A stretch of DNA of 64,000 bases from Qingshengfaniella alkalisoli (GTDB taxonomy: Bacteria > Pseudomonadota > Alphaproteobacteria > Rhodobacterales > Rhodobacteraceae), in NCBI RefSeq assembly GCF_007855645.1, contig NZ_CP042262.1, positions 186,001-250,000 on the forward strand, in the 5' to 3' direction. Below, one piece after another: positions 19,503 to 63,353 of the stretch (position 1 is its first letter; each line of letters starts with the position of its first letter). The notes beneath the pieces are model-generated. The model searched no databases. It saw only the letters and a list, made by a program, of their open reading frames with translations, and was not told the origin of the DNA. A program made the translations under genes and the position numbers.

Positions 19503-20540
19503 ATGGCCGAGCCACAAACCGTGCCCGTTGATGTGCTGGAAGACCGCGTAAGAAAGATCTTCGAAAAGAGCGGTGTACGACCCGAAAGTGCGGCAGCCGT
19601 CGCCCATGTCATCGTTGCGGGAGAGCGCGACAACTGCAAATCCCATGGGATCTATCGGATCGAAGGGTGCCTGCGCGTTCTGGCCGCGGGCAAGGTTGAA
19701 CCCGATGCGGTGCCGGAGATCTTCGATCAGGGCAAATCCGTTATCGAGGTCGATGCGAAAGGCGGCTTTTCCAACCCTGCATTCTTTGCGGCCAAGGACA
19801 CACTGGTCAAACGGGCCCACGAGACGGGGATCGCCGCACTAGTGATCCGCGACTGCCTTCATTTTTCCGCGTTGTGGCATGACGTGGAAACGCTGGCTGA
19901 GGACGGCCTGGCGGCTTTGTCCATGTGTCCGAGCTACGCCTTTGTTGCGCCCGCGGGTGGAACCAAACCCTTGTTGGGCACCAACCCCTTTGCCTTCGGC
20001 TGGCCACGTGTGGACGGACATCCATATGTGTTCGATTTCGCAACCAGCGTCGCGGCGCGCGGAGAAATCGAACTGCACCGTCGCGCAGGCACGCCAATCC
20101 CGGAAGGCTGGGCCATCGATAAGGACGGCAACCCGACGACAGATCCCGATGCGGCTCTTGAAGGGGCGATGCTGACATTCGGCGCGCATAAGGGGTCGGC
20201 GATCTCGACGATGATCGAATTGCTGTCCGGCGCGATGCTCGGCGAATTCATGAGCAAGGAAGCGCTGGATTTCATGGGACGAACGGATCTCTTGCCGCGG
20301 CACGGCGCGCTGGTCCTGGCGCTGGACCCGCAGACATTCGCGGCGCGAAGCGGTCGCGATCCGCTCGCCGAAGGCGAGAAAATACTAACCGCTATAGGAG
20401 CCCAAGGAGCCCGGTTGCCCTCGCAGCGGCGCTTTCAGGCGCGCGACAAGGCCATGGTGAATGGCATCGCGTTGACGGATTCCGAACTGGCCCAGCTGGA
20501 CCGGTTCGAGGCGCAGGGGCTGGATGCTCTGAACGGCTGA
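19503..20540 (+). CDS. Ldh2-family NAD(P)H-dependent imine reductase (probable pyrroline-2-carboxylate reductase)
   Basis: This 345-residue protein belongs to the malate/L-sulfolactate/ureidoglycolate dehydrogenase (Ldh2/YlbC) family, which lacks a Rossmann fold. Family marks are AGERDNCKSHGIYRI near residue 40 (containing the conserved catalytic-region His), FVAPAGGTKPLLGTNPFAFGWP near 140, and DFATSVAARGEI near 178. Members such as DpkA reduce pyrroline- or piperideine-2-carboxylate to L-proline or L-pipecolate. That would complete conversion of 3-hydroxyprolines to proline after aconitase X or the Ser/Thr enzyme. A malate or lactate dehydrogenase role is less likely in this context. AAGGAG precedes the ATG by 11 bases. 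Confidence 0.8.
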   Translation: MAEPQTVPVDVLEDRVRKIFEKSGVRPESAAAVAHVIVAGERDNCKSHGIYRIEGCLRVLAAGKVEPDAVPEIFDQGKSVIEVDAKGGFSNPAFFAAKDTLVKRAHETGIAALVIRDCLHFSALWHDVETLAEDGLAALSMCPSYAFVAPAGGTKPLLGTNPFAFGWPRVDGHPYVFDFATSVAARGEIELHRRAGTPIPEGWAIDKDGNPTTDPDAALEGAMLTFGAHKGSAISTMIELLSGAMLGEFMSKEALDFMGRTDLLPRHGALVLALDPQTFAARSGRDPLAEGEKILTAIGAQGARLPSQRRFQARDKAMVNGIALTDSELAQLDRFEAQGLDALNG

Positions 20541-20627: not shown

Positions 20628-21350
20628 CTATCTGGTGCCAGCCAGAAACTTCTGCGTCTCGGGGTGTTGCGGGTTCCCGAACAACTGCTCGGGTGTCCCG
20701 ATTTCAGCCATGATCCCCTTGTGGAAGAATGCGACCCGGTCGGACACATCGCGGGCGAATGCCATCTCGTGCGTGACGCAGATCATCGTCATGCCTTCTT
20801 CCGCAAGCATCTTCAGCGTCTCAAGAACTTCGCCTACAAGTTGCGGGTCGAGCGCGGACGTGACTTCGTCAAACAGCATATAGTCAGGTGACATCGCCAG
20901 CGCACGGGCAATCGCCATCCGCTGTTGCTGGCCGCCTGACAGACGACCCGGATAGGTGGTCAGCTTGTCACCAAGGCCCACATGCTTGAGCTGCTTTTCT
21001 GCTGTTGCTTCGGCGTCGGCCTTGCCCTTCCCCAACACCTTGCGTTGGGCAAGGGTCACGTTTTCCATCACCGTAAGGTGTGGGAAAGCGTTCCATTGCT
21101 GAAAGACAATACCGATCTTCTGGCGCAGCTTGTTGATATCGGTCGATTTGGCATGCACTTCGGTCCCGTCGATCGTGATCTTGCCGGAATCGATCGGCTC
21201 CAATCCATTGATGCAGGTCAGAAGCGTGGATTTGCCTGACCCGGAACCGCCGATCACGGTGACGACCTCGCCTTTTTCGACGGTCAGGTCGATCCCCTTG
21301 AGAACCTCGAGCGGGCCAAAGGATTTTCGGACGTTTTGAATATCAATCAT
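20628..21350 (-). CDS. Polar amino acid ABC transporter ATPase (GlnQ/HisP family)
   Basis: This 240-residue ATPase has a single ABC domain: Walker [10 protein letters not shown], signature [15 protein letters not shown], Walker [22 protein letters not shown] and the H-loop CVTHEM. It powers the pair of HisM/HisQ-like permeases encoded upstream. The start at 21350 ([12 protein letters not shown]) has AGGTGG ahead of it and overlaps the permease stop by 8 bases; a longer upstream frame is rejected. It is the last gene of a four-gene operon. The operon's position beside the hydroxyproline enzymes suggests an imino acid or hydroxyproline substrate. Confidence 0.9.
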
Positions 21351-21996
21351 TGGACCACCTCTTTTCGAGATACCCACCGAAGCGGGCAAGCGGGAAACTG
21401 ATGATGAAGTAGAACGCGCCACAGATCAGCAGAAGCAGCATCGGCTCCTGAAGGCGCGTGATGAGGATTTGCGTGGATTTCAGAAGCTCCGTGACCTGCA
21501 CGACGTAAACGAGCGCGGAATCCTTCATGACGCCAAGCGCAAGCCCGATCCAGGACGGCAGGGCCACGCGAGTAGCCAAAGGCATCACGATGTAGCGCAT
21601 GTCCTGGCCCCATGTCATGCCGAGCGAACGTGCAGCCCGCCGGACCGTGACCGGCACTGAATCAATGCCGCCCCGCACGATCTCGGCGCAATAGGCCGAG
21701 GTATAAAGCGACAGCACAAGGCACGCGACCGTGAAGCCCGAAATCTGCAACTGTAGCACCATGCCGACGAAGGCGTTGGCGAGGACGAGTTGGATCAGCA
21801 ACGGGATAGACCGGAAGATGTCCAGAAAGAAGGTCAGCGGTGCCGAGAACACCGGGCCAAGCTGGATGCGGATCACCCCGAAGGCGATACCAAGGATGGT
21901 TCCGATGGCAACCGATATCGCGGTGACGAGGATCGTGATCCCGGCCCCCTTTGCAAGGAAGATGAAATCGGCGGTGGTGAGAGCGGTGTCGAACAT
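21343..21996 (-). CDS. Polar amino acid ABC transporter permease (HisM/GlnP family)
   Basis: This 217-residue inner-membrane protein has about five hydrophobic segments. The cytoplasmic EAA loop reads [34 protein letters not shown], the contact site for the ATPase in this family. It pairs with the 221-residue permease encoded just upstream to form the import channel. GGGAGGA precedes the ATG by seven bases. The gene overlaps the ATPase gene, as is usual for these compact operons. Confidence 0.88.
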
Positions 21997-22009
21997 GATC
22001 GGTCCTCCC

Positions 22010-22675
22010 TCAGTACCGGAACAGGCGCGCAGCGATCAGGCGTGCGCTCAGGGTGATGACCTTGGTGATCACGTAGAAGATCACGGCGGCAATCGCGAAC
22101 AGCTCGAACGTGCGGAAGGTCAGCGCGTTCAGATCTTGCGTGACGCCGTACAGGTCCGTGTTCATCCCCACGGTTACGCCAAGCGAGGTCATCAGGATCG
22201 CCCAGACCATCTGGTTTGTCATTGGCAGGAACGAGATCCGCAACATCTGCGGCAGGATGATATAGCGAAACGCCTGAAGCTGGGACATGCCCAGGGACCG
22301 CCCTGCGCGGGTCTGCGTATCCGGGATGGCCTTCAGGGCACCGCGGAAGTTTTCAGCGAGATACCCGGCGTTGTTGAAGGTGATGCCAATGAGCAGCGAG
22401 ACGAACGGGCTGAAATGAATGCCGAAACTCGCGACGCCGAAATGCGCCATGTATATCTGGAAAAGGGCAGGCGTGTTGCGGGCGACTTCGACCCATGCCG
22501 TCGCGATTGCCATCAGGGGGCGGGACCCTGACAGACGCAGCAGCGTCAGAATGACCGCAAGCGCAATTCCGATGATCATCGACAGCACGGCGACCTGCAT
22601 GGTCACCACGGCCCCGTCGAGCATCTGGGGAAGGCGCACGAGCACCTGCTTCCACTGGAAAGTGTAATCGAACAT
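22010..22675 (-). CDS. Polar amino acid ABC transporter permease (HisQ/GlnP family)
   Basis: This 221-residue membrane protein is the second permease of the importer. The EAA loop is RGALKAIPDTQTRAGRSLGMSQLQAFRYIILPQ, and five or so membrane spans can be seen. It sits between the binding-protein gene, from which a strong hairpin separates it, and the other permease gene 13 bases downstream. The ribosome site is modest (GGAAC), in keeping with lower expression than the binding protein. Confidence 0.88.
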   Translation of the reverse strand: MFDYTFQWKQVLVRLPQMLDGAVVTMQVAVLSMIIGIALAVILTLLRLSGSRPLMAIATAWVEVARNTPALFQIYMAHFGVASFGIHFSPFVSLLIGITFNNAGYLAENFRGALKAIPDTQTRAGRSLGMSQLQAFRYIILPQMLRISFLPMTNQMVWAILMTSLGVTVGMNTDLYGVTQDLNALTFRTFELFAIAAVIFYVITKVITLSARLIAARLFRY

Positions 22676-22710
22676 ACCGTTCCGAATTCTTAGGAGAGCT
22701 GGAAGGAAAA

Positions 22711-22733
22711 GCGGCGCGGGAAAACCGCGCCGC
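22711..22733 (-). promoter_or_regulatory. Intercistronic hairpin after the amino acid binding-protein gene
   Basis: GCGGCGCGG and CCGCGCCGC form a perfect 9-bp stem with a GAAAA loop, placed between the binding-protein stop and the first permease start. As at 3900, it probably stabilises or partly terminates the transcript so that binding protein exceeds permease. Confidence 0.55.
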
Positions 22734-22752
22734 CGTGTCTGTGTCGCCTATA

Positions 22753-23559
22753 TCAGCGATAGGCGTTTGGAACCGTAAGCTGCGGCACGTCACCGCCAAC
22801 CCACTTTTCGTACAGCTCGTCATAGCGGCCGGTGCGAACCTGCTGGTTCACGAACAGGTCGAGATAGTTGATCAGGCCGTATTCGTCGCGCTTCGCGAAC
22901 AGGGCAACGTAGTCGATGTCGAACGGTGCCTTGCCAACGACGGAAATGCCGTCGAACTTGCCCGACTGGACGTTGGCCTGTGCAACGGTGGAGGTGGACA
23001 CGGTTGCGTCCAACTGACCTTGGCTGAGCGCAAGGAACACATCGGCCTGGGTCTGGTAAGGACGGAACGTGCCATCGCCCCACTCATTTACATACTCTTC
23101 CAGCGCGATGGCTTCGTAGGTGCCGGCCACGGCACCAACGGTGTGGCCCTTCATGTCCTCGAAAGACGCGATGCCCGTTTCGTCATTCGCGGTGACGGCC
23201 ATTTCAAAGGCGAAATAGGGGATCGAGAAACCAACCGTCTTGGCACGTTCCAGCGTATCAGAGGTCGACGCCACGCCTACATCGACGCGGTTTGACATCA
23301 AGGCAGGGATACGTTCGGGAAAGGGGGTTTCGACGATTTCGGCTTCGACGCCAAGCGCGGCGGCGAGGTCGTTACAGTAATCGACATCAAAGCCGATCGG
23401 TTCGTTGTTCTCGTCGCGCATGCCCATAGGTGGAAAGTCGAGCACAACAGCGCAACGCAGCGTACCGGACCCGATGATGTCGTCGAGCTTGTCAGCCTGA
23501 GCCACGCCCGCAACGCAGGACGCTGCGATGATGCCGGCGGAAAGTGCAATGGATTTCAT
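22753..23559 (-). CDS. Amino acid ABC transporter substrate-binding protein (family 3)
   Basis: This 268-residue periplasmic protein opens with a signal peptide (MKSIALSAGIIAASCVAGVAQA). The family 3 fold follows: GSGTLRCAVVLDFPPMGMRDENNEPIGFDVDYCNDLAAALGVEAEIVETPFPERIPALMSNRVDVGVASTSDTLERAK, abridged. The Asp in GFDVDYC and the Arg in this pattern normally bind the alpha-amino and carboxyl groups of an amino acid. The exact ligand is unknown; the neighbouring hydroxyproline genes suggest an imino acid. AGAGAGG lies ahead of the start, and the gene is the first of the importer operon. Confidence 0.9.
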   Translation of the reverse strand: MKSIALSAGIIAASCVAGVAQADKLDDIIGSGTLRCAVVLDFPPMGMRDENNEPIGFDVDYCNDLAAALGVEAEIVETPFPERIPALMSNRVDVGVASTSDTLERAKTVGFSIPYFAFEMAVTANDETGIASFEDMKGHTVGAVAGTYEAIALEEYVNEWGDGTFRPYQTQADVFLALSQGQLDATVSTSTVAQANVQSGKFDGISVVGKAPFDIDYVALFAKRDEYGLINYLDLFVNQQVRTGRYDELYEKWVGGDVPQLTVPNAYR

Positions 23560-23972: not shown

Positions 23973-24641
23973 TTACGTGACATCGCCGCCTAGAAGGCCG
24001 ACGCGGTCTTCCAGGTTCAGAGACATTTCCAGATTATCCAGATGCCTTTGCATTTCAAGCATCGCCGCTTCCGAGTCTTCCTTCGCCAACAATTCAAGTA
24101 TCTTCTGGTGGTCTTCAAAATGGCACGGGCACTTATGGGATTTGCTATAAATAGAGCACACCAATGACGAGATACCCAAGATTTCTTGCAGGATGTGATG
24201 GCTTGTTTCGTTCTGGGTTATCCGGGAGATTTCAGCATGAAAATCCGAAGAATGGACAAGTGCTTCAGGGATCTTGTCATTCTGAACCGCAATGCGCTCT
24301 TTATCTATCATCTCCTGAAGTGCCTGAATCTGAGAGGGTGTTATCTTTGTGGCTGCGACTCTCACGCATTCCTTTTCCAGAACCTTTCGCAAGGAGATGA
24401 TCTCTCGGGCTTTTTTCAAACTCGGGGTAGATACAACAGCACCCCTGTTGGCGATGTGGGAAACTATACCTTCATGCGTGAGAACGAGCAAAGCTTGCCG
24501 TATGACTGCTCTGCTGGTTCCGAAGTCTTCCATAAGGTTCTTTTCGACGAGGCGGGTGCCCGGCGTAAGTTCAAGATTCCGGATCTTCTGCCGGAGCACT
24601 GAACAAACATCTTCGATTTCGACCGATGTTGCTTTCGTCAT
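23973..24641 (-). CDS. GntR-family regulator with FCD domain
   Basis: This 222-residue regulator has a GntR winged helix (VLRQKIRNLELTPGTRLVEKNLMEDFGTSRAVIRQALLVLTHEGIVSHI) and a helical FCD ligand domain (SSDFHAEISRITQNE, FEDHQKILELL). It is co-oriented with and downstream of two amidohydrolase genes, and it probably controls them and the divergent dipeptide-type ABC operon. A 7-bp palindrome lies just ahead of the gene and may be its own operator. The ribosome site is weak. By eye its base composition, like that of the next 9 kb, is AT-richer than the rest of the window. Confidence 0.85.
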   Translation of the reverse strand: MTKATSVEIEDVCSVLRQKIRNLELTPGTRLVEKNLMEDFGTSRAVIRQALLVLTHEGIVSHIANRGAVVSTPSLKKAREIISLRKVLEKECVRVAATKITPSQIQALQEMIDKERIAVQNDKIPEALVHSSDFHAEISRITQNETSHHILQEILGISSLVCSIYSKSHKCPCHFEDHQKILELLAKEDSEAAMLEMQRHLDNLEMSLNLEDRVGLLGGDVT

Positions 24642-24763: not shown

Positions 24764-26254
24764 TTATGCGTTTGCAGGCGATTGGGTGGTTCTAAAAGAT
24801 GGTTGGAAGATCTCGTCCAACGCTGGGGTGCCCGGGCATCTTTCCGGGAAGGTTCCCATGAATGTCTGATACTGATCTTGAGCTTTCGCATGTAGATGAG
24901 CCATGTCGTTCCCGTTCTTCAGCTTATGATTGTCGACCACCAAAATGCCGTCGACGATAACCGACCTGACATCCCGACCGTTTCCATTGATTACCAATGT
25001 CGTAATGGGATCGAAGAGTTGTCCCGTAAAGGGCGATGCAAAGTCAAACACGATGAGATCAGCTTTACTGCCACGACAAAGCCGCCCGATATCTTCGCGC
25101 CCCAAGGCTTTCGCGCCACCGATCGTGGCCGCTCTATAGTAATCTGCCGCTGACGCTTCCGTAATCGATTGTTCGGTCACGCGACTCAGGATGCAACCTA
25201 CATGCATGTTCTGGATCATGTCGACGGGGTAGGTATCCGTTCCCAATGCAATATTGATCCCTGCGGATTGGAACCGCGTCAGTCCAGAAAAGTATTTCGC
25301 GTGACGTCCCGCGACCAGAGGGCAGATGACTGCGCTGGCTCCCGCTTGCCCGATCAGTTGAAGCTCATCATGCACGCGGTCTTCAGTCGGGTTCTTACCT
25401 CCCAACAGCTGCAAATGAGGAAGTAGGGTCTTGTTGGACAGCAAGCCACAGCTATTGATCAGCTCAATGGAGGATTTGCCGTCGTGAAGCGCATCCACCA
25501 TATCCACTTCCAAGGGGCCTTGGCAGGAATGCAGCCGCAGAGTGCAATCGAGATCGTTCCGAACGGCTGCGCTTTCGCGAAGTAGCTTTGGTGTGCAGCC
25601 TTCTATGCGATCCGGTGCAAGCATACCGGTTATCCGGCTGGAGTAGTCGTTTTCCAGCAATGAAATGAATCTGGCAGCATCGCGCAGCCCTGCAAGCCCA
25701 CGCTCCTCGTTGAAGCGCATGGAAAACTTGCCGTCGTCGGAAGTTACTGAGTAGCCGGACATATATGCCGGGCCGAGAACGGCACGTATGCCGGTTTGCT
25801 CCGCTATATCCGCCGCCGTGACAAACTCATCATAGGTTTCCGCCCATTCCCGATACAGGATCGATGTTATGGGAGCAGCCGTCGTGATCCCGTTCATCAA
25901 AAGCATGTTGAAGGAATAGAGTTTATTGAACGCAAGCTGCTCAGGCGTGTAGGTTTCACGCCGTTGCCAGTTCTTGCTGGGCACACGACCTTTCTTCCAG
26001 CCCGGCTGATTGTCGAAAGCCAAAACTGTCGAATCCAGATCGACGATGGCATCGAGATCAATGAAGCCGGGGCCAATGAGCGCATTGCCCTCATCTATGT
26101 CGGTATCGATATGGCCCTCGTAATCATGCCCGACGAAAATAACGGTGTTGTCCTGATAGACGACCTCGCCATCTTGATAGATGTGATGATCGCCATCCTT
26201 GTATCCGACCACGTATTTGGCTTTACGCCGGATGACCGGGGAAGACGAACTCAT
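24764..26254 (-). CDS. Amidohydrolase-superfamily protein lacking the N-terminal HxH metal motif
   Basis: This 496-residue protein has the overall layout of the ATZ/TRZ-type amidohydrolases: an N-terminal beta-sandwich strand set, a TIM barrel, and the C-terminal GSKADLIVFDF return. However, where family members read GxIDxHxH after the first sandwich, this protein reads FIDLDAIVDLD (about residues 64-74), so the two histidines that bind metal are replaced by acidic residues. Other positions remain: LRLHSCQG, CPLVAGRH and LGTDTYPVD. It may be a metal-poor or re-tuned hydrolase. The ATG at 26254 overlaps the preceding gene by four bases (ATGA), showing translational coupling to the HxH-bearing paralogue. 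The substrate is unknown. Confidence 0.7.
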   Translation of the reverse strand: MSSSSPVIRRKAKYVVGYKDGDHHIYQDGEVVYQDNTVIFVGHDYEGHIDTDIDEGNALIGPGFIDLDAIVDLDSTVLAFDNQPGWKKGRVPSKNWQRRETYTPEQLAFNKLYSFNMLLMNGITTAAPITSILYREWAETYDEFVTAADIAEQTGIRAVLGPAYMSGYSVTSDDGKFSMRFNEERGLAGLRDAARFISLLENDYSSRITGMLAPDRIEGCTPKLLRESAAVRNDLDCTLRLHSCQGPLEVDMVDALHDGKSSIELINSCGLLSNKTLLPHLQLLGGKNPTEDRVHDELQLIGQAGASAVICPLVAGRHAKYFSGLTRFQSAGINIALGTDTYPVDMIQNMHVGCILSRVTEQSITEASAADYYRAATIGGAKALGREDIGRLCRGSKADLIVFDFASPFTGQLFDPITTLVINGNGRDVRSVIVDGILVVDNHKLKNGNDMAHLHAKAQDQYQTFMGTFPERCPGTPALDEIFQPSFRTTQSPANA

Positions 26255-27438
26255 ATCAAGACTCCGTCTTCGACAACACATTCTCCGCGCTTGAACACTG
26301 TTCTATCTACTGGACCTGCGACTATGGCCTCGGCGTGGTTGCGAGAGTTCAGAAGGACAAAATCCGCCTTGCATCCAGTCTCCAGGCCGTAGTCCTTGAG
26401 TTGCATGACATTGGCCCCCCCTTGCGTGATGGCATAGAGAGCCTTCTGGAGTTCGACGTCTTTGCGCCAACGATACTTCAAGCCCATAAACATGGCTCTC
26501 TGAAGCATGTCACCGGTGCCGTACGGACTCCAGGTGTCACGGATTCCGTCGTTCCCTGCAGTGATCTCGACGCCATGCTTGCGCAGCAGGTCGAATGGCG
26601 GAACCGTTCTGTTGGCTGGGGCCGTGGTCGCTATCGAGATGGAGTTCTCACCTAGATCGGCCGCGAGTTTCTCTTGATGCTCCTGGGAGACCTCGCCAAG
26701 GCAAAAAGCATGGCTGATCGTGACATTGCCTTGCATGGACAAAGCCTTGGTCCGTTCGATCATCAATTCGACGGAAAACGCTCCGAGCTCGCCCGGTTCG
26801 TGGAGATGCAGATCGACGCCCTTGCCGTATTTTTCGGCGAGCTTGAATACCTGGTCCAGATGTTCAACAGGATCGCGCTCGAATGTTGACGGGTCGATAC
26901 CACCCACGAGATCGCATCCTGCCTTCATCCCGGCATCCATCACATCGTAAGTGCCTGGGCGGACGATCATTCCGCTTTGTGGAAAGCAGACCAGTTCGAT
27001 GTCAATCTTATCCTTTAGCGCCTCTTTGGTCGCCAACACGCCCTCAACGTGAGCAATGCCGATTTCGGTGTCGACATCTATATGCGTACGGATATGTGTC
27101 GTTCCTTGCCGAAGGGCTTGCTCGGAAATCCGCTGAGACTGCTGGTGGGAGTCAAACGAATTCTCTCGCCGAAAGCGCCTTTCGTTTTCGACAATCGCTT
27201 CGAGGTTTCTGGGGACATCATTCTCATACCAGTCCATTCCCCATAGAGATTTGTCGATATGTGCATGACCATCGACGAAGCCTGGAAGCAGTAGCCGACC
27301 CCCCGCATCATAGCTCTCATGTCCATCTTTTGTCAGCTGCTCCGGAGGCGGGGTATCAATAAAAACACCGTCTTCAACCCAAAGGGTGGCAAGGTCATCA
27401 CCAGACTGTAGGCGAGCGTTTTTGACTTTGAGGATCAT
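26251..27438 (-). CDS. Cytosine-deaminase-like amidohydrolase
   Basis: This 395-residue metal hydrolase resembles cytosine deaminase and N-isopropylammelide hydrolase. It keeps the usual metal and catalytic set: HxH in FVDGHAHIDKS, THIRTHIDVD, LHLHEPG, ISHAFCLG and the Asp in ITAGNDGIRDTWSPYG. It would hydrolyse a cyclic amidine, amide or aminopyrimidine-like compound in the cytoplasm. The start at 27438 gives MILKVKNARL; the 52 extra upstream codons have no similarity and run through the promoter region. It is coupled to the DLD-type amidohydrolase downstream and is divergent from the dipeptide-type importer, which suggests that the imported compound is its substrate. Confidence 0.8.
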   Translation of the reverse strand: MILKVKNARLQSGDDLATLWVEDGVFIDTPPPEQLTKDGHESYDAGGRLLLPGFVDGHAHIDKSLWGMDWYENDVPRNLEAIVENERRFRRENSFDSHQQSQRISEQALRQGTTHIRTHIDVDTEIGIAHVEGVLATKEALKDKIDIELVCFPQSGMIVRPGTYDVMDAGMKAGCDLVGGIDPSTFERDPVEHLDQVFKLAEKYGKGVDLHLHEPGELGAFSVELMIERTKALSMQGNVTISHAFCLGEVSQEHQEKLAADLGENSISIATTAPANRTVPPFDLLRKHGVEITAGNDGIRDTWSPYGTGDMLQRAMFMGLKYRWRKDVELQKALYAITQGGANVMQLKDYGLETGCKADFVLLNSRNHAEAIVAGPVDRTVFKRGECVVEDGVLI

Positions 27439-27648: not shown

Positions 27649-29235
27649 ATGAAATTTCTGAATACGGCACTGACAGGGGTATCGCTGTCGCTGGCATTCA
27701 CAACCATGGCTCACGCTAACGGCAACGATGTGACCTGGGCGACCAGTACGGATATCCCGACGCTTGATCCGTATGCATTTGCATCAACATCTGCGCTGGC
27801 GTTCCAAAATCATATCTATGAAGGGCTGGTTGGCTGGAACGCAGACTTCGAAATCGAGCCGGTTCTCGCGGAAAGCTATGAATACACCGACGACACAACC
27901 ATTCGCTTCAAGCTGCGCGAAGGCGTCACCTTTCATGACGGGGCGGCATTCACCGCCGATGATGTCGTCGCGTCGGTGAACCGGGCAACGAATGAGAATG
28001 CCGGCATCCGTGGGAACGTGTCGACCATAGCGTCGGCTGAGAAAATCGACGATTACACTGTTGATATCAAGCTCGCCGAACAAAGCCCGATTGCGATCAA
28101 TGAATTGACCGGTCTCTTGATCATGGATCAGGAGTGGCTGGAAGCGAACCGCGCACTCGAACCGACAAGCATGTCTGCCGGTACAGAGGGCTATGCGACG
28201 AACAATGCGAATGGCACCGGCCCGTTTTCTCTTGTGAGCCGCCGCCGGGATGTCGCCATGGAGTTGGCGGCCAATCCCGATTGGTGGAACAACGAGAACA
28301 AGACGCACAATATCGACACGATTACATTCAAACCGGTAACATCGGATGCGACTCGTCTGGCGGGTCTGCTGTCCGGTGAATATACGCTGGTGACGGATGT
28401 CCCCCTTCAGGATCTCGAACGCCTCGAGGCGAATGACAGTCTTGAGGTCAAGGTGTCGCCAACCTTGCGCGTGAATATGTTTTCGCTGAACATGGATGAC
28501 GAACTCAACGCTGGAAACGTGGACGGAAAGAACCCGCTGCAGGATGTCCGCGTTCGGCAGGCGATGATGATGGCTTTGGACCGCGAAGCGATCACGCAAA
28601 AGATCATGCGCGGCATGTCCGAACCAGCCAATTCATACATTGCGCCTGCCATCGTCGGTTTCGATGAGGCCAATCAGATTGATCTTGCTTATGATCCGGA
28701 AGGTGCGAAAGCCCTTCTTGAAGAAGCCGGATATGGCGACGGGTTCAAGCTGGCCTTTGACTGTGTCGAAGGGGCATATCTGAATGCGCGTCAATGGTGC
28801 CAGGCTGCACAGGCCTTCTGGGCCCGCATCGGGATCGAGGCGGAACTGAATGTTCATCCGCGCAGCACTTACTCCCAAATCCGGGATAACGGGCGAACGG
28901 ATATCGGCGTATTGGGTTGGGCTAATCTTCCGCTCATCGACGCCTACAGCATCAACCAGCAGCTGATCCACTCCAAGGATGGTGGCATCTACGGCGCATT
29001 CAACATTCCTCGCTACAAGAACGAGGAAGTGGACAGCTTGATCGAAGCGTCTGCTGTGGAGATGGACCAGGAGAAGCGCAAGGAACTGATCGGGCAGGTT
29101 ATGGCAAAATCACAAGCCGATCTGCCATTCATTCCGATGCACTATGAACCCGTCGCCTGGGTTTCCAAGACAGAATTCGGTGTTCCGATTTATCCGGACA
29201 ACGTTGTGCGCCTGTGGCGCGCCGGGTTCGAGTAA
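27649..29235 (+). CDS. Peptide/nickel-type ABC transporter substrate-binding protein (family 5)
   Basis: This 528-residue periplasmic protein is of the DppA/OppA type. A signal peptide (MKFLNTALTGVSLSLAFTTMAHA) is followed by the family 5 markers IPTLDPYAFAS, HIYEGLVGWN, IRFKLREGVTFHDGAAFTADDVVASVNR and TNNANGTGPFSLV. Family 5 proteins bind peptides but also opines, glycosides, metals and heterocycles, so the ligand cannot be named. The adjoining deaminase-like amidohydrolases suggest a nitrogen-containing ring compound. GGGAG precedes the ATG. It is the first gene of a five-gene plus-strand import operon. Confidence 0.9.
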   Translation: MKFLNTALTGVSLSLAFTTMAHANGNDVTWATSTDIPTLDPYAFASTSALAFQNHIYEGLVGWNADFEIEPVLAESYEYTDDTTIRFKLREGVTFHDGAAFTADDVVASVNRATNENAGIRGNVSTIASAEKIDDYTVDIKLAEQSPIAINELTGLLIMDQEWLEANRALEPTSMSAGTEGYATNNANGTGPFSLVSRRRDVAMELAANPDWWNNENKTHNIDTITFKPVTSDATRLAGLLSGEYTLVTDVPLQDLERLEANDSLEVKVSPTLRVNMFSLNMDDELNAGNVDGKNPLQDVRVRQAMMMALDREAITQKIMRGMSEPANSYIAPAIVGFDEANQIDLAYDPEGAKALLEEAGYGDGFKLAFDCVEGAYLNARQWCQAAQAFWARIGIEAELNVHPRSTYSQIRDNGRTDIGVLGWANLPLIDAYSINQQLIHSKDGGIYGAFNIPRYKNEEVDSLIEASAVEMDQEKRKELIGQVMAKSQADLPFIPMHYEPVAWVSKTEFGVPIYPDNVVRLWRAGFE

Positions 29236-29251
29236 GCAGGGCCTGTAACCG

Positions 29252-30226
29252 ATGGTGTTCTTCTTGATCCAGCGCTTCTTCCAGGCAACGGTATTGATGC
29301 TTGCGGTCGCGCTAATCGCTTTCACTATGTTCCAGTTCACGGGTGATCCGATTGACAACATGGTCACGGAGAACGCCACCCAAGCGGAGCGCGACGCGCT
29401 CCGCGAGGAACTTGGCCTCAATGACTCCGTCATCGTACAGTATGCCCGATTTGTGGGGAACGCGATCCGCGGAGAGTTCGGAATCTCCTATTACAATCAG
29501 AGTGATGTCTTTGATCTGATCATCGAGCGGCTACCGGCCACGCTAGAGCTTGTTCTTGTGGCGGTTGCCATATCCTTGGTTGTCGGAATACCTATCGGTG
29601 TCTGGATATCATTTTCGAACAACAGGTTCCTGACCGGGTTTGTTCAAGTGCTGTCGCTCGTTGGGATATCGCTGCCATCATTCCTTGTCGGCATCTTCTT
29701 GATCGTCGTCTTTGCTGTGTGGCTTGGCTGGTTGCCATCAAGCGGGCGGGGTGAGATCGTCGAATTCGGACCTTGGTCCACAGGTTTGCTGACCGGATCC
29801 GGCTGGGCTTCGATCTTGCTACCAGCGCTTTCGCTGTCGTTTTTTCTGATCACGATGATCATGCGTTTGATCAAGAGCGAGATGCAGGAAACACTGCAGA
29901 CCGAGTATATCAAATTCGCGCGTGCGAGAGGCATATCGGAACACAGCCTACGGTATCATCACGCGTTGAGGAATTCGATCCTTCCTGTGATCACAGTGGT
30001 TGGTTTGCAAATTGGCAACCTGATCGCATTCGCGGTGATTACCGAAACGATCTTCCAGTGGCCGGGCATGGGACTGCTCTTCATCCAGGCCGTAAACTTT
30101 GTCGATATACCGGTGATCTCTGCTTACCTCGTCTTCGTGGCGCTGATTTTCATCGTCGTGAACACAAGTGTCGACATTATCTATAGGCTCGTTGATCCGC
30201 GCATGCGGGCAAGCGCCGGAAAATAA
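29252..30226 (+). CDS. Peptide-type ABC transporter permease (DppB family)
   Basis: This 324-residue inner-membrane permease has six membrane spans. It has the DppB start (MVFFLIQRFFQATVLMLAVALIAFTMFQFTGDPID, abridged) and the EAA loop YIKFARARGISEHSLRYHHALRNSILPVITVVGL. It forms the channel together with the DppC-like protein encoded next. It begins 16 bases after the binding-protein stop. Confidence 0.9.
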   Translation: MVFFLIQRFFQATVLMLAVALIAFTMFQFTGDPIDNMVTENATQAERDALREELGLNDSVIVQYARFVGNAIRGEFGISYYNQSDVFDLIIERLPATLELVLVAVAISLVVGIPIGVWISFSNNRFLTGFVQVLSLVGISLPSFLVGIFLIVVFAVWLGWLPSSGRGEIVEFGPWSTGLLTGSGWASILLPALSLSFFLITMIMRLIKSEMQETLQTEYIKFARARGISEHSLRYHHALRNSILPVITVVGLQIGNLIAFAVITETIFQWPGMGLLFIQAVNFVDIPVISAYLVFVALIFIVVNTSVDIIYRLVDPRMRASAGK

Positions 30227-30228
30227 TC

Positions 30229-31173
30229 ATGATTACTCAAGTTGATCCAGTGACAAAGCCAGGTCGCTTCAAGAAGTTCTTCGATGGCGACTTCTTTTAT
30301 TCCTTCAGGACATCACCGATTGCTGTCATAGCTTCGGTGTTCCTTGTCACATTTCTCCTGTTGGGCCTATTCGCGCCATGGATATCGCCTACAGACCCAA
30401 CCAACGCCGCCTCGTTCAATCTTATGGACTCCGAGTTGCCTCCTGCTTGGACAGCCGGGGGTGACGGCCGGTATCTTCTGGGAACGGATGTTCAGGGAAG
30501 GGATCTGTTTTCATTGCTTCTCTACGGGTTGCGCATCTCTCTGCTTGTTGGGTTCATCGGCATGGGTGCCTCTGTTGTTCTTGGTGTGACACTTGGACTG
30601 CTGAGTGGATATTATAGAGGCTGGGTTGACACCGTGATCATGCGGACGGCCGATGCAATGCTGAGCTTTCCCACAATCATGTTTGCTTTGCTGATCAGCG
30701 GTTCTGCGAAAGTACTGTTGCCTCAGGACATACAGGGTGATCTGGCAATTTATATAATCATCCTGTCGATCACGCTGACCGGCTGGATGAAATATGCACG
30801 CACGGTCCGGGGCGCTGTCCTGCTAGAGGGGTCCAAGGAGTATGTGCTCGCTGCGAAGGCCATGGGCAGTTCCGCATATCGCGTCATGTTCCTGCATATT
30901 CTGCCGAACGTCCTGAACGCGGTATTGGTATTGGCGACGCTGCATGTGGCCTTGGCGGTGCTGATTGAAGCAACATTGTCGTTTCTCGGTGTGGGTCTGC
31001 CTCCCAATCAACCGTCCCTGGGAACGCTGATCAATGAAGGCAATACGTATCTTTTTGCCGGTCAGTGGTGGGTCATACTTTTTCCCGCATTGGTGCTGGT
31101 TCTGTTCGCCTTGTCGGTCAATCTCGTTGGCGACTGGCTGCGCGATGCCTTGAACCCGAAACTGAAGAAATAG
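30229..31173 (+). CDS. Peptide-type ABC transporter permease (DppC family)
   Basis: This 314-residue permease has six hydrophobic segments. Typical DppC features are the N-terminal cytoplasmic tail, LLGTDVQGRDLFSLLLYGLRISLLVGF near residue 83, and the EAA loop EYVLAAKAMGSSAYRVMFLHILPNVLNAVLV. It starts two bases after the DppB-like stop, indicating translational coupling, and pairs with that protein. Confidence 0.9.
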   Translation: MITQVDPVTKPGRFKKFFDGDFFYSFRTSPIAVIASVFLVTFLLLGLFAPWISPTDPTNAASFNLMDSELPPAWTAGGDGRYLLGTDVQGRDLFSLLLYGLRISLLVGFIGMGASVVLGVTLGLLSGYYRGWVDTVIMRTADAMLSFPTIMFALLISGSAKVLLPQDIQGDLAIYIIILSITLTGWMKYARTVRGAVLLEGSKEYVLAAKAMGSSAYRVMFLHILPNVLNAVLVLATLHVALAVLIEATLSFLGVGLPPNQPSLGTLINEGNTYLFAGQWWVILFPALVLVLFALSVNLVGDWLRDALNPKLKK

Positions 31174-31188
31174 GGCAGGGAGGCATCA

Positions 31189-32175
31189 ATGACCCAAGCA
31201 TCTCTACGCGTCGAAGATCTATCAATCGAGTTCCATCACCACCGGGGCAATCTGCAGGCTATCCACAAAGTATCACTTGAACTCCGTTCGGGAGAGATCC
31301 TTGGTGTCGTCGGTGAATCCGGCGCCGGGAAGTCGTTGACCGGGTCCGCAATAACCGGGCTTCTTGCACCTCCGGGCCACATCGTCGGCGGTGATATCAG
31401 CTACAACGGTCGCTCGTTGCTCAACATGGCCTATGGTGAACGCCAAAAGCTTCGCGGTAAGGAAATTGCGGCGATTTTTCAGGATCCTTTGACAAGCTTG
31501 AATCCAGTGCTCACCATCGGTGATCAGTTGGTCGAAACAATCCAGACCCATCTGCCGATTGGAAAAAAAGAAGCTCATAACCGCGCCGTGAAGATCCTGA
31601 AAGATGTTGGAATACCGGCGGCTGAGCAGCGCATGGCGCATTTTCCACATCAGTTTTCAGGGGGTATGCGGCAACGGGTCGTAATTGCGCTGGCGCTGTG
31701 CGTAGACCCGAAAGTTGTTATTGCGGATGAGCCAACTACGGCATTGGACGTGTCAGTGCAGGCTCAAATCCTGAAGCTCCTTCGAGATCTTTGCAGCAGA
31801 AATCAAACGGCCATCATGTTGGTCACACATGATATGGGTGTTGTAGCAGAGGTTTGTGATCGTGTTGCTGTGCTTTATGCGGGCCATCTCGTAGAGAGCG
31901 GGGATGTAAAACAGATCCTGAAAAACCCGCGACACCCCTACACGAAGGGGCTGATGGACTCGATCCCGAAGATCGGTGTCCGTCAGGAGAAGCTCTTTCA
32001 AATTCCGGGATCCATGCCGCGATTGAATGCGTTGCCTCCGGGGTGCAAATTCAATCCCAGATGTCCCTACGCGACTGATACCTGCCTTCGTGAAGTCCCG
32101 CCGTCCGAAACGACGCATACGGGGCATATAGCCTGCTGGAACCCCCTTGACGGAGGCGAAAATGACAACGCCTGA
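31189..32175 (+). CDS. Peptide-type ABC transporter ATPase (DppD family)
   Basis: This 328-residue ATPase shows Walker A GESGAGKSLT, Q-loop IFQDPLTSLNPVLTIGDQL, signature FSGGMRQRVVIALAL, Walker B VVIADEPTTALDVSVQAQIL and the oligopeptide-ATPase C-terminal region PGCKFNPRCPYATDTC. That cysteine-bearing tail binds an iron-sulfur cluster in some homologues. GGGAGG precedes the start. It acts with the DppF-like ATPase encoded next, whose start lies inside its last codons. Confidence 0.9.
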   Translation: MTQASLRVEDLSIEFHHHRGNLQAIHKVSLELRSGEILGVVGESGAGKSLTGSAITGLLAPPGHIVGGDISYNGRSLLNMAYGERQKLRGKEIAAIFQDPLTSLNPVLTIGDQLVETIQTHLPIGKKEAHNRAVKILKDVGIPAAEQRMAHFPHQFSGGMRQRVVIALALCVDPKVVIADEPTTALDVSVQAQILKLLRDLCSRNQTAIMLVTHDMGVVAEVCDRVAVLYAGHLVESGDVKQILKNPRHPYTKGLMDSIPKIGVRQEKLFQIPGSMPRLNALPPGCKFNPRCPYATDTCLREVPPSETTHTGHIACWNPLDGGENDNA

Positions 32176-33226
32176 TAGTCCCTATCTTGAACTGAAAGAT
32201 CTGTCGCTGGAATTTACGCTTCCGACACCGATGTCAGAACGTATCATGAAATTGAGAGGGCCACAGAAATTACAGGCTCTCAAAGGTATCGACCTGGCTA
32301 TCCCGAAAGGCGAAACCTTGGCGCTTGTTGGAGAGTCGGGCTGTGGAAAGTCGTCCCTAGCCCGCGTTCTGTCCGGCATCTATGAGCCGAATTCCGGTCA
32401 AATTCTTTTCGAAGGTGTGGACGTCAACAAAGCATCCAACGCGGCACGGCGTATCATGCGCCAGAAGTTCCAGATGATCTTTCAGGACCCGTATTCCAGC
32501 CTGAATCCGCGCTGGACCATCCAGTCTATTGTCGAAGAGCCGATGATACTCTTCAATCTGGTTTCCGGGGGAAAAAAGGCCAGGAGGGCGCGCGTGATAA
32601 GCCTGCTTGAACAGGTCGGACTGGGCGAAGGAGATCTTGCGAAGTTCCCTCACGAATTCTCTGGCGGACAGCGACAACGTATCTCTATTGCCCGTGCGCT
32701 TGCAAGTGAACCGGAATTCCTGATCTGCGATGAACCGACATCGGCACTGGATGTGTCGATTCAGGCGCAAGTCCTCAATCTGATGAAAGACCTGCAGAAG
32801 CAGTATAACCTGACATGTCTGTTCATCAGTCATGATTTGTCTGTTGTCTCGCATATCGCAGACAAGATCGGTGTAATGTATCTTGGCGAGATTATCGAAA
32901 TGGGAACGGTGGATGATATTTTTACATCGCCCTCACACCCCTACACACGAATGCTCATCAACGCGATCCCCGGTGCGACCAATCTTGGCATGGAACTGCA
33001 GGGCGTGGCGGATGTTGCGGTGGATGGTGAGCTTCCCAACCCGTTGAACCCGCCATCAGGTTGCAACTTCCATCCCAGGTGTGCTTTCAAATTGGACATT
33101 TGCGATCAGGAAGAACCCGCGCTGGTCGGTGTTGGCGGCGAAGCTGGAACAGACCACTTTGCGGCTTGCCATCTGTGCGAGCGCTACAATGGCAGAGCGA
33201 CGGACCAATCGTTACAAGCATCCTAA
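32162..33226 (+). CDS. Peptide-type ABC transporter ATPase (DppF family)
   Basis: This 354-residue second ATPase of the importer has Walker A GESGCGKSS, Q-loop IFQDPYSSLNPRWTIQSIV, signature FSGGQRQRISIARAL, Walker B LICDEPTSALDVSIQAQVL and the Cys-containing C-terminal motif PPSGCNFHPRCAFKLDIC. The ATG at 32162 is chosen because GGAGG lies six bases ahead; an earlier TTG in frame would place that site inside the gene. It overlaps the DppD-like gene by 14 bases and ends the operon. The GMC oxidoreductase gene converges from the other side. Confidence 0.9.
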   Translation: MTTPDSPYLELKDLSLEFTLPTPMSERIMKLRGPQKLQALKGIDLAIPKGETLALVGESGCGKSSLARVLSGIYEPNSGQILFEGVDVNKASNAARRIMRQKFQMIFQDPYSSLNPRWTIQSIVEEPMILFNLVSGGKKARRARVISLLEQVGLGEGDLAKFPHEFSGGQRQRISIARALASEPEFLICDEPTSALDVSIQAQVLNLMKDLQKQYNLTCLFISHDLSVVSHIADKIGVMYLGEIIEMGTVDDIFTSPSHPYTRMLINAIPGATNLGMELQGVADVAVDGELPNPLNPPSGCNFHPRCAFKLDICDQEEPALVGVGGEAGTDHFAACHLCERYNGRATDQSLQAS

Positions 33227-56929: not shown

Positions 56930-57916
56930 TCATGGGGTTGGTCGTGTTTTCCCGGCGGCGCGATCCTGCGCGAGCCAGCAAGTTGCAAAGTGATCCTGCC
57001 CTACCGACGTTCTGGGAGGGTCGGTGACACAGCGTTCATGCGCGAATGGACAGCGCGCCCTCATGGGGCACTCCCCGGGGCGCACGTTTCCCAGCACAAG
57101 TTCTCCGTGAAGGGCCACAGGGTCACGCTCCAGTGGATGGATGCGGGGGGACGCGTCCAGCAAGGCCTGCGTATACGGGTGCGCCGGTGACGTCAGGACG
57201 CGCTCGGCGGGGCCCTCTTCGACGATACTGCCCAGGTACATCACGATCACGCGTTCGCACATGTAACGTACAACCGCTATGTCATGGCTGATGAAGAGAA
57301 AGGCTGTGCCTGTTTCTTCACGTAGCTGTTTGAGCGTGCGAAGCACCTGGGCCTGAACCGATACATCCAGCGCCGAGGTCGGTTCGTCCAGCACCACCAC
57401 CTTGGGTTCACAAGCGAGCGCCCGCATGATGGCTACCCGTTGGCGTTCGCCACCCGATAGCTGGCGGGGGAAGCGGTCCAACATAGACGGATCCAGGCCG
57501 ACCAGCCGTGCAAGCTTTTCGATCCGCGCCGCTTCTTCACGACGCGGCACAACGGCAAAATTTCGCAGTGGCTGCGTCACGAACTGTCGAACGCTCATAC
57601 GCGGGTTCAGGCAGGTTTCCGGTCGTTGGAACACGATCTGGGTGTTCTTGCGAAACCGGCGCAGATCACGACCATTGAGATTGGTCAGATTGCGGTGTCC
57701 GATCAGGATCTCTCCCGTTTCGGGGCGGTCCAATCCGACAAGGCAACGCGCCAACGTGCTTTTGCCGCAGCCGCTTTCGCCGATGAGGCCCACTGTCTCA
57801 CCGGCAGAGATATCCAAGCTCACGTCACGCGCGCCAACACTGATCGCCTCGGGGTCGTCGGGATTGTTGAACAAGCGCGAAACCTGCCGAACGGAGAGCA
57901 CAGGGTCCATATTCAT
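56930..57916 (-). CDS. Peptide-type ABC transporter ATPase (DppF family)
   Basis: This 328-residue ATPase shows Walker A GESGCGKST, Q-loop IVFQRPETCLNPRMSVRQFV, signature LSGGERQRVAIMRAL, Walker B VVVLDEPTSALDVSVQAQVL and the Cys-containing tail PGECPMRARCPFAHERC. The ATG at 57916 is preceded by GAGGTGAG and overlaps the DppD-like stop as ATGA; 39 upstream codons in frame are rejected. It completes the importer of the DUF6282 operon. Confidence 0.88.
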   Translation of the reverse strand: MNMDPVLSVRQVSRLFNNPDDPEAISVGARDVSLDISAGETVGLIGESGCGKSTLARCLVGLDRPETGEILIGHRNLTNLNGRDLRRFRKNTQIVFQRPETCLNPRMSVRQFVTQPLRNFAVVPRREEAARIEKLARLVGLDPSMLDRFPRQLSGGERQRVAIMRALACEPKVVVLDEPTSALDVSVQAQVLRTLKQLREETGTAFLFISHDIAVVRYMCERVIVMYLGSIVEEGPAERVLTSPAHPYTQALLDASPRIHPLERDPVALHGELVLGNVRPGECPMRARCPFAHERCVTDPPRTSVGQDHFATCWLAQDRAAGKTRPTP

Positions 57917-58875
57917 TTGCTCACCTCGTCGTAGAGAACACACTGCACGCTTTGATCGCCTCGCCGTATCGAGGGTGGTCGGGCGGTGTTGCAGATCGGC
58001 TGGGCCTGTGGACAGCGATGCGAGAACCGGCAACGCGCCGCCCGTGCCGGGCCGCCCCAGACGCTGCCTTTGAGCGGCACCAGTTCATGGGGATTGTCGA
58101 CGTCCGGGACTGCCGCGATCAGTCCTTGCGTGTAGGGATGAAGGGGGTTTTTGAACAGCAGTGACCGTTTGCCTGTCTCGACGAGCTGACCCGCATGCAT
58201 GATCGAGATACGGTCGCAATAAACCGATACAAGGGACAGGTTGTGCGCGATCAGCACCAGCGCCATGCCACGTTCGCGGCACATGCCGGTGAGAAACCGC
58301 AGCAACTCCCCCTCTGTGGTTACGTCGAGCGCGGTCGTCGGTTCGTCGGCAATGAGCAGGCGCGGCTTCGTGGCGAGCGCGCATGCCATGGCCACGCGCT
58401 GCGCCTGGCCCCCGCTGATCTGATGAGGGTATTTTCGGCCGTGGTCGTGGTAGCTCAACCCGACGACGCGGAACAGTTCCTCGACCTCGGCGCGGCGGTC
58501 CCTGCCTCGTCCGGCCTTCCCCAGTGCGCGCTCGACCTGACGAGCCACCATCATATAGGGGTTCAGCGCGCCTTTGGCATTCTGGAACAGAAGCGATGCG
58601 CCGCGCGACAGCGATCCGCGCAGCCCCTTCTGGTCGCGTGCAGGAAGCGGGGTGGACCCGATGGAAACACTGCCGGCCACGACATCCAGCCCCCGCGCCG
58701 CCAAGCCAACGGAAGACATCATCGAGATGGATTTTCCCGATCCGCTTTCGCCAACCAGCCCGTAGACCTCGCCGGGATGCACGCGGAGTGACAGTCCATC
58801 GACGATCCGCCGGCGTTCGCCGCCGCGGGTGCTGTCGATGCACAAACCGTCTATGGTGAGCATCGGTTCGGCCAT
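57913..58875 (-). CDS. Peptide-type ABC transporter ATPase (DppD family)
   Basis: This 320-residue ATPase has Walker A GESGSGKSISM, signature ISGGQAQRVAMACAL, Walker B LLIADEPTTALDVTTEGELL and the tail ARCRFSHRCPQAQPIC. The Q-loop region reads LLFQNAKGALNPYMMV, slightly unlike the common form. The ATG at 58875 is chosen because GGAGGG lies six bases ahead; an ATG two codons earlier abuts that site. It starts two bases after the DppC-like stop. Confidence 0.88.
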   Translation of the reverse strand: MAEPMLTIDGLCIDSTRGGERRRIVDGLSLRVHPGEVYGLVGESGSGKSISMMSSVGLAARGLDVVAGSVSIGSTPLPARDQKGLRGSLSRGASLLFQNAKGALNPYMMVARQVERALGKAGRGRDRRAEVEELFRVVGLSYHDHGRKYPHQISGGQAQRVAMACALATKPRLLIADEPTTALDVTTEGELLRFLTGMCRERGMALVLIAHNLSLVSVYCDRISIMHAGQLVETGKRSLLFKNPLHPYTQGLIAAVPDVDNPHELVPLKGSVWGGPARAARCRFSHRCPQAQPICNTARPPSIRRGDQSVQCVLYDEVSK

Positions 58876-58877
58876 GG

Positions 58878-59771
58878 TCATCCCTCCGCCCGGCTTGGGT
58901 CGAGCCGGCCTTCCAGACAGTCACCCAGCAGATTCAGACTGAAGATCGCGGCAACCAAGACGAGACCGGGGCAGACGCTCATCCACCACGCACCCTGCAC
59001 AAGGTAGTTCGTACCTTCTGCCACCATCACGCCGAGATCTGGCGTCGGAGGGCGAATCCCGATTCCGAGAAAGGACAGCACCGCGACATTGCCGACCGCA
59101 GCTGCAAGGTTCAGGCTTGCGTGCACGATGATCGGCCCGAGCGTGTTGGGCATGAGATGGCGGAACAGGATAGAGGTCTCACTAGCCCCCGAACACCGTG
59201 CCGCGTCGATGTACTCCAGGGTCTTTTTGCGCAGCGCTTCGCCGCGAATGACCCGGGCATAGGTTGGGATGTTGATCAGAACCGTAACGACGACGATGGA
59301 GAACACGCCGGGGCCCAGCACCAGAACCAGAACCATCGCGACAAGCAAGAGTGGAAAGGACTGCACGATATCGACAAACCGCATGAAGATCTCATCCGCG
59401 AGCCCACCGACATAACCGCAGACCAGCCCGACGAAGGAGCCGATCAGGATGGCCCCCGCGACGCCAGTCGCCGCCACGGTGAAATCGATCCGCAGTGACG
59501 TGATCGTGCGCGAGAAGACATCGCGACCGAAATGATCAGTGCCTAACCAGTGCTCGGCCGAAGGCGGCTGAAGCGTATCCGGCGTCGTCAGCACCGGATC
59601 ATGGGTGACCAGTGCCGGGCCGAAGATCGACAGCAGCACCAGGATGGCCAGCACGACACTGCCAATCAGACCGAGCATGTCGCCACCGAACACGCCGCGA
59701 TAGAGCCGCGTCCACATCGAGCGCCGCGGCGCGGAACCTGCCGCGCGGGCCATGTTGCGTCCCGCCACCAT
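58878..59771 (-). CDS. Peptide-type ABC transporter permease (DppC family)
   Basis: This inner-membrane permease of about 297 residues has LGTDHFGRDVFSRTITSLRIDFTVAATGV near its first third and the EAA loop LEYIDAARCSGASETSILFRHLMPNTLGPIIVH. Six hydrophobic segments are seen. The start is uncertain: 59771 lies one base after the DppB-like stop, while ATGs at 59804 and 59753 are open; none has a strong ribosome site. It pairs with the DppB-like protein. Confidence 0.85.
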   Translation of the reverse strand: MVAGRNMARAAGSAPRRSMWTRLYRGVFGGDMLGLIGSVVLAILVLLSIFGPALVTHDPVLTTPDTLQPPSAEHWLGTDHFGRDVFSRTITSLRIDFTVAATGVAGAILIGSFVGLVCGYVGGLADEIFMRFVDIVQSFPLLLVAMVLVLVLGPGVFSIVVVTVLINIPTYARVIRGEALRKKTLEYIDAARCSGASETSILFRHLMPNTLGPIIVHASLNLAAAVGNVAVLSFLGIGIRPPTPDLGVMVAEGTNYLVQGAWWMSVCPGLVLVAAIFSLNLLGDCLEGRLDPSRAEG

Positions 59772-59772
59772 G

Positions 59773-60792: not shown

Positions 60793-60857
60793 GTCTGGCT
60801 ATTCTTCGTGAGGGAAGGATGGGAGCGGTGTGACGAGCAGCGCCAGGCTGATGCAGA

Positions 60858-62492: not shown

Positions 62493-63353
62493 GTCATTCC
62501 CTGTGCTTTGCGAAGCGTCTGCATCAGCCATTTGGCCCGCGCCTCTGTCATGCACTTAGTGTTGCGGGCGGACCTGATGTGCACCAGTTCCCTTTCGGTA
62601 CAATCGATGATCCCTTGAGATCAGAAATGCGTTCTGATGGCATCTATCGTTACCTGACAGGGGAGGTCCAAGCGCTCGACAAGGCGATGTGGCATTAACT
62701 TTGGATTATGGCCAGTTGCAGCGTGATGTGGGACGTGGCGGACGACTGACGCCCGCCTTTGCAACCACCACCATTTCCTACCCGATGTGATCGCTTATGC
62801 TGTTTGGCTGTATTTCCGCTTTCGACACTACAAGAAATTTCAGGAAGCAATCCTGAAATTGCTCTTCCGCCCAAGCTGCAAACTCGAGGCAACGTTTGGT
62901 CAAAGAAAGTGAAGTCTCTTCCTGGAAACTTCCTGCTTCGATTGTCAGAACTGTTTGCGCTGGATGGCCATAGGTGGGGGCGCCGTCAGAGACCGCTCCG
63001 AACATTTGGCCGGCGTACCCCCGGGCTAAAATTATTGCGTGGGCAACATGTCAAGTTACGGTGTTCCGGTTCCGGGCTATCCCATTCTTGCGGCTCGGCG
63101 TCCCGAGTTTGCGTAACCCTCGAACGGAGAATGCCGTGGGAGAGACCACCAAGCCAGTCAACTCACCCCGCGATCATCAGGTCTGAACACTGGCCCGAAT
63201 TTCCGTGACCACATCTCAGCGCGGCTGCGTTGCCAATAAACGAGGGTATTCTGTTCCGGCAATGCGATTGTCGATGACTGGGAGGGCGGGGTAAATGCAC
63301 TAGCCGCTGGACGAGCGGCCATGTAGATGACAGCCATGGCGAGATAGCCAAGC
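62493..63353. other. Gene-poor, IS6-scarred interval
   Basis: The left part (62493-62700) should hold the promoter of the DUF6282 operon; no clear operator was recognised. IS6-family fragments lie at 62710-62850 (plus) and about 63185-63358 (minus). Between them, a minus-strand frame near 62950-63050 (AIILARGYAGQMFGAV) may be debris of a metabolic gene, unidentified. No intact gene is supported. Confidence 0.5.
62710..62850 (+). mobile_element. IS6-family transposase 5' remnant, copy 4
   Basis: GGCCAGTTGCAGCGTGATGT at 62710 matches the terminal sequences of copies 1 and 2. ACG occupies the place of the start codon 32-33 bases later, followed by TDARLCNHHHFLPDVIAYAVWLYFRF. FLPDVIAYAVWLYFRF is a near-perfect form of the IS6 transposase N-terminal block, making this the best preserved of the remnants. 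After the FRF motif the sequence loses similarity. It points right (plus strand), opposite to copies 1 and 2. Confidence 0.7.

Follow-up and report, generated by a model that had tools for sequence, protein, structure and literature searches.

An amidohydrolase-fold subfamily without the HxH zinc motif, usually encoded beside a PRK05985-type amidohydrolase

We identified, in a 64,000 bp stretch of the Qingshengfaniella alkalisoli genome (contig NZ_CP042262.1, positions 186,001 to 250,000; this whole stretch is called the window below), a gene for an amidohydrolase-fold protein in which the HxH motif is replaced, and the same replacement is found throughout its subfamily (Table 1). In amidohydrolases, zinc is normally held by the two histidines of this motif. 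On balance we think it probable, with moderate confidence, that these HxH-less proteins form a remodelled, still functional subfamily that lacks the canonical zinc site and is the pathway partner of a PRK05985-type amidohydrolase. Since the trait is conserved, the pocket appears rebuilt, and a normal-looking relative usually adjoins the gene, the protein is probably a re-engineered enzyme and not a damaged copy. The matter concerns about a hundred sampled species, in which these genes are named "chlorohydrolase" by an NCBI model yet lack the zinc-binding HxH of the known chlorohydrolases.

Table 1. Features of the HxH-less gene and its surroundings (positions in the window).
Feature	Position	Strand	Remarks
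HxH-less amidohydrolase-fold gene	26254..24764	minus	496 aa
GPGFIDLDAIVDLD, residues 61-74	26033..26074	minus	D68/I70 in the place of HxH; D72 and D74 specific to the subfamily
Asp215-Arg216, end of beta4	25607..25612	minus	DR in 23/23; HxH sisters mostly SQ, AQ, GQ
YREWAETYDE (134-143), insertion past beta2	25826..25855	minus	invariant Y134, R135, W137, E139, E143
Arg240, two residues N-terminal of the beta5 His	25535..25537	minus	candidate stand-in for the positive charge of the metal
His242 (RLHSCQ), beta5 metal-ligand position	25529..25531	minus	kept; invariant in HxH-less and HxH groups
Gln245, replaces the Glu of HxxE	25520..25522	minus	Gln throughout the subfamily set (23/23) and in most HxH sisters (20/23)
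His280 (LPH), beta6	25415..25417	minus	kept; invariant in HxH-less and HxH groups
Asp340 (GTDT), beta8	25235..25237	minus	kept; invariant in HxH-less and HxH groups
Partner gene, HxH-bearing amidohydrolase NF004636 (PRK05985)	26251..27438	minus	27438 is an inferred start; the ORF stays open up to 27594
ATGA overlap	26251..26254	minus	partner stop TGA within the start of the HxH-less gene
GntR-type regulator adjoining the pair	23973..24641	minus	84 bits to TIGR03338, under its cut-off
Dipeptide/oligopeptide/nickel-type ABC transporter, divergent	27649..33223	plus	binding protein, two permeases, two ATPases

The reading frame of the HxH-less gene is intact on the minus strand, with no stop and no frameshift. 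A longer ORF opens at 26281; we placed the start at 26254 because of the overlap with the upstream gene and because this overlap is conserved (see below). The protein matches Pfam PF01979 (Amidohydro_1) with 76.5 bits (gathering cut-off 25), the match beginning past beta1, and NCBIfam NF004801 (PRK06151, "chlorohydrolase family protein") with 605.6 bits (curated cut-off 416); no equivalog model of known function came near its cut-off, the best reaching 112 bits against 522. An HxH-bearing protein (L113, G190:C1:721153-722637, with FIDTHVHSG at the site) also exceeds the NF004801 cut-off, at 530 bits, so this model covers both proteins that have the zinc motif and proteins that lack it, and the annotation "chlorohydrolase" is unsafe for the HxH-less protein. 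Neither PRK06151 nor PRK05985 is mentioned in the literature we searched, whose coverage was partial, and a prior study is possible.

The AlphaFold2 model (pLDDT 86, pTM 0.89) is of low confidence in residues 71-100, which include D72, D74, and D81. Foldseek searches with this model gave E-values down to 6e-30, the closest solved folds being 7ww2 (isocytosine deaminase), 4f0r (MTA/SAH-deaminase relatives), NatAM, TrzN, and AtzA. The model has the (beta/alpha)8 barrel and small beta domain of the mononuclear-zinc cytosine deaminase/ATZ-TRZ branch, and our best reading is that the HxH-less proteins are a distinct subfamily of this branch, inside NF004801. AtzA/TrzN, the Vcz isocytosine deaminase (7ww2), and the MTA/SAH deaminase homologues (4f0r, 4dyk) have TM-scores of 0.72-0.77 to the model and share with it the beta5 His and the beta8 Asp. 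Members of this group have the HxH, and the characterised ones have the catalytic Glu. NatAM (6sj0) has the fold in common as well (TM-score 0.74); it is a zinc amidohydrolase-fold enzyme that carries out a benzoxazole ring closure, and non-hydrolytic dehydration is therefore feasible on this fold, but unlike the HxH-less protein it retains its zinc site of His75, His77, His253, and Asp345 (PMC7204872). His242 of the HxH-less protein would be the positional equivalent of His253 of NatAM.

At the site itself the protein reads LIGPGFIDLDAIVDLDST, as compared with HxH-bearing relatives such as PGLVNVHAHPTSEP. Alignment to the HxH relatives puts D68 at the first histidine and I70 at the second, so that D68-x-I70 ends beta1 (residues 64-70 in the model) where the mononuclear-zinc branch has HxH; D66 matches the usual Asn/Asp of the (N/D)xHxH context, and D72 and D74 lie two and four residues further on. 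The initial annotation, which reported the HxH as absent and an acidic stretch, FIDLDAIVDLD, in its place, was correct about the absence and about the acidic stretch; the DLD, however, lies just downstream of the positions that correspond to the two histidines, and this alignment rules out that DLD substitutes for HxH residue for residue. The DLD is conserved in the homologues examined: D72 and D74 are invariant across the aligned HxH-less subfamily, and so is D66. The later family positions said to persist do so (the His of RLHSCQ and the Asp of LGTDT), and His280 can be added to them. The Glu of HxxE, found in chlorohydrolases and deaminases (AtzA, TrzN, 8-oxoguanine, and SAH deaminases), is absent; since most of the HxH sisters also have Gln245, this change does not track the loss of HxH and is no sign of decay. 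Zinc would be unable to sit in the HxH-less site in the usual way.

We found 79 full-length close relatives in scans of public genomes, and whole-genome searches added more members. The alignment of all rows, a few of which repeat a gene already present, contains 115 D/N-x-L/I, 71 HxH, and 5 HxI rows. All 115 aligned subfamily rows have D/N-x-L/I, so the loss of HxH is not due to chance or sequencing error, and all 115 also carry Arg240, Asp215-Arg216, and Gln245. The hosts include Vibrionaceae, Pseudomonas, Marinobacterium, rhizobia, Rhodobacter, and a Chloroflexota MAG; additional members were found on plasmids of Pantoea and Sinorhizobium. In a tree computed with the motif (trait) columns excluded, the HxH-less proteins form a single clade (SH-aLRT 100), the HxH proteins all fall to one side of a branch, and there are three label changes overall; a single loss of HxH would be the simplest history. 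Asn at position 68 (L007-L009, L011, and L050) originated inside the HxH-less clade, which makes D68 doubtful as a necessary metal ligand.

The nearest neighbour of the HxH-less clade in this tree is an HxI gene (support 96), whose placement is less sure because its row sits on a long branch. The conserved HxI lineage (L146/L178, L179, and L180; five rows, three distinct genes) has the motif GLVNLHCIANLDAQVL. Like the HxH-less subfamily, it lacks the second histidine and has R240, D74, D81, and an insertion past beta2; unlike the subfamily, it keeps His68 and Glu245, and has Asn at 72 and Tyr-Gln at 215-216. It may be an extant form intermediate between HxH and D-x-L. The HxH sisters proper (L088-L092, L114-L116, and L145-L164 except L146) share 26-31% identity with the HxH-less protein. 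They have in common with it the beta5 His, mostly Gln245, E249, the beta6 His, and the beta8 Asp, and differ from it in having the HxH, Asp/Glu128, Gln/Thr/His240, and mostly SQ/AQ at 215-216, and in having no PRK05985 neighbour (within flanks of about 1.4 kb).

We compared non-redundant sets of 23 HxH-less and 23 HxH proteins. The polar residues invariant in, and particular to, the HxH-less group are D72, D74, D81, R90, Y102, Y134, R135, E139, E143, D215, R216, R240, D345, and N349; P128 and P279 are invariant and particular to it as well. The stretch that holds E139 and E143 is a gap in 19-22 of the 23 HxH sisters, and the DR pair directly follows beta4 (residues 208-214 in the model). The loops on the active-site face, in windows that we chose from the strand ends of the model, hold 19 of the 33 subfamily-specific invariants (8 expected, p=2e-5) and 10 of the 14 charged or polar ones (p=2e-4). 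In addition, across ten Pseudomonas loci the dN/dS is 0.124 for the HxH-less gene and 0.105 for its PRK05985 partner; the HxH-less gene is under strong purifying selection, similar to that on the partner. The best reading of these changes is that the pocket was rebuilt after the loss of HxH, rather than given up.

The partner gene directly upstream encodes a protein that scores 494 bits against NF004636 (cut-off 408), with 6nbo as its closest solved chain (362 bits), and its metal site (HxH, beta5 His, beta6 His, beta8 Asp) is intact in 109/109 rows. The initial annotation had called the two genes translationally coupled and the neighbour HxH-bearing and cytosine-deaminase-like, and this is borne out by the ATGA overlap and a widely conserved pairing: 17 of the 23 non-redundant HxH-less members have PRK05985 directly upstream, as do 68/68 Pseudomonas loci, 6/6 marine gammaproteobacterial loci, and most alphaproteobacterial members with Asp68, and the exact 4-base overlap (ATGA or GTGA) is found in 84 of 99 adjacent pairs. 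Similarly, an amidohydrolase gene occupies the position of the partner in Pantoea and on Sinorhizobium pSymB. PRK05985 is not adjacent in L007-L011, L050, L140, and L142, nor to the second copy in L169, and these members rule out its presence next door as an exceptionless rule; in L008, L009, and L050 a different HxH amidohydrolase is upstream. All six genomes with unpaired copies that we searched (L007-L011 and L050) encode PRK05985 relatives at other sites, and three of the six (L007, L008, and L009; G492, G495, and G496) have a second, Asp68 copy paired with PRK05985. Two long Pseudomonas ORFs (L049 and L076) were checked as gene fusions and rejected, since the partner has an ORF of its own in another frame. 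The source genome has a second pair on another contig (L101:6343-8411, about G000:C1:866342-868410), with Dpp-type transporter genes of its own alongside; the HxH-less gene of this pair is broken across two frames (a pseudogene or an assembly error) and the partner is open.

If the HxH-less proteins are a remodelled and functional subfamily, as we favour, a single loss would have removed the HxH part of the zinc site, and the pocket would have been rebuilt afterwards. The protein would still bind a small nitrogen-containing substrate and would most likely still do chemistry, either metal-free, with R240 and acidic residues in the role of zinc, or with one metal shifted to D215-H242-H280; it would act in the degradation pathway of its PRK05985 partner, either earlier or later than the partner or as part of a joint assembly. 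Because pocket residues are both retained and newly fixed, we think it likelier that the protein binds a ligand or catalyses a reaction than that it is a pure scaffold, with the caveat that a binding-only or regulatory protein can keep active-site residues too.

The metal-free form of this proposal is possible, if rather unlikely when taken alone. R240 would sit in the vacated zinc place, salt-bridged to D68, D66, or D340, and would polarise the substrate. It occurs in every D/N-x-L/I row (115/115) and every HxI row (5/5), thus in all 120 HxH-less rows, and in none of the HxH rows (0/71), and by strand geometry residues 66, 68, and 70 should lie on one face of beta1, and 240 and 242 on one face of beta5. 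The covariation of R240 with the loss of HxH, however, stems from one evolutionary event only, and position 68 can be Asn.

We regard the form with a moved metal site as unlikely. One metal would be bound by D215, H242, and H280, with D340 as the base. D215, a candidate ligand of such a relocated metal, is invariant in the HxH-less proteins, whereas most HxH sisters lack it there, and H242, H280, and D340 are invariant. NagA offers a parallel: the E. coli and V. cholerae enzymes have QxN where HxH would be and a single-metal site, and the E. coli enzyme still uses its one metal (PMC6016474). E. coli NagA is thus a natural case of HxH loss like the present one, but in another branch of the amidohydrolases. 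Against a moved metal, an invariant R240 (and R216) beside a metal would be unusual, and the HxI lineage has Tyr in place of D215. Asn68 in one subclade and R240 beside the beta5 His likewise weigh against the simplest idea of a metal swap.

A non-catalytic subunit, a pseudoenzyme that would stabilise, activate, or regulate the PRK05985 enzyme by assembling with it, is a rival we hold to be just as unlikely as the moved metal. Both the HxH and the HxxE Glu are gone, adjacency with the 4-base overlap is near-universal in Pseudomonas and marine gammaproteobacteria, and the superfamily offers a precedent: pDHO of P. aeruginosa, an inactive dihydroorotase-like chain, is essential for aspartate transcarbamoylase activity (PMC7053772), although its partner is a transcarbamoylase, whereas the partner of the HxH-less gene is another amidohydrolase. 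This rival fits less well with the invariance of the other ligands and the gathering of new charged invariants in the pocket, with Gln245, which is common to HxH sisters and so not decay, and with the members that lack an adjacent partner gene; the latter also weigh against an obligate complex. The fullest version of the arginine proposal, in which a metal-independent enzyme with Arg in place of zinc forms a fixed, co-expressed pair, and perhaps a heteromeric complex, with a conventional zinc amidohydrolase and the HxI lineage is the half-way record of the change, we hold to be a little more doubtful still. An ordinary amidohydrolase with its HxH at another site can be dismissed, as can a lone mutant or a frameshift among normal homologues: the trait is in all homologues, beta1 carries D68/I70 and no HxH in either the alignment or the model, and the frame is intact.

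The subfamily is a natural experiment in which metal ligands were given up but the fold and the remaining pocket stayed, and it includes a surviving half-way lineage and a clear candidate for the compensating residue, R240. If the HxH-less protein is active, it would bring new chemistry to a very well studied scaffold; an inactive protein would add a second type to the amidohydrolase pseudo-subunits.

The genes around the pair give some indication of its substrates. Counterparts of the divergent transporter flank the pair in L001-L003 (54-74% identity), and GntR-like genes also border it in Photobacterium and Vibrionaceae loci. Across loci, the neighbours include Asp/Glu/hydantoin racemases, flavin-reductase-like genes, other HxH amidohydrolases, and Dpp-type or Pot-type importers, which, together with the L172 genes described below, suggest that cyclic amide, ureide, or amidine compounds are taken up and degraded, and single out none of them. 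Our best reading is that the pair serves an uptake and degradation operon for nitrogen compounds; judging from the neighbour genes only, the substrates are probably cyclic amides, ureides, or amidines imported by the adjacent transporter. A literature search for substrate clues, partial in its coverage, found nothing relevant.

Several individual loci are worth describing. In L172:5967-14733, the HxH-less gene lies amid two Asp/Glu/hydantoin racemase genes, a CN-hydrolase gene, a D-hydantoinase gene (553 bits, cut-off 393), and a creatininase-family gene, and this cluster is possibly one for hydantoin or creatinine catabolism. L195:4073-19685, on pSymB of Sinorhizobium meliloti, contains two HxH-less genes, one paired and one alone, in a transporter-rich cluster with further amidohydrolase, flavin reductase, and racemase genes. 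In the window, a malate/lactate/ureidoglycolate-dehydrogenase-like gene (19503-20540, plus strand) lies near a polar amino acid type ABC transporter (20628-23559, minus strand), and may be part of the same ureide-type catabolism. The window also holds a second cluster matching Dpp/Opp-type transporter genes (56933-62555, minus strand), with ATPases, permeases, and a binding-protein-like ORF.
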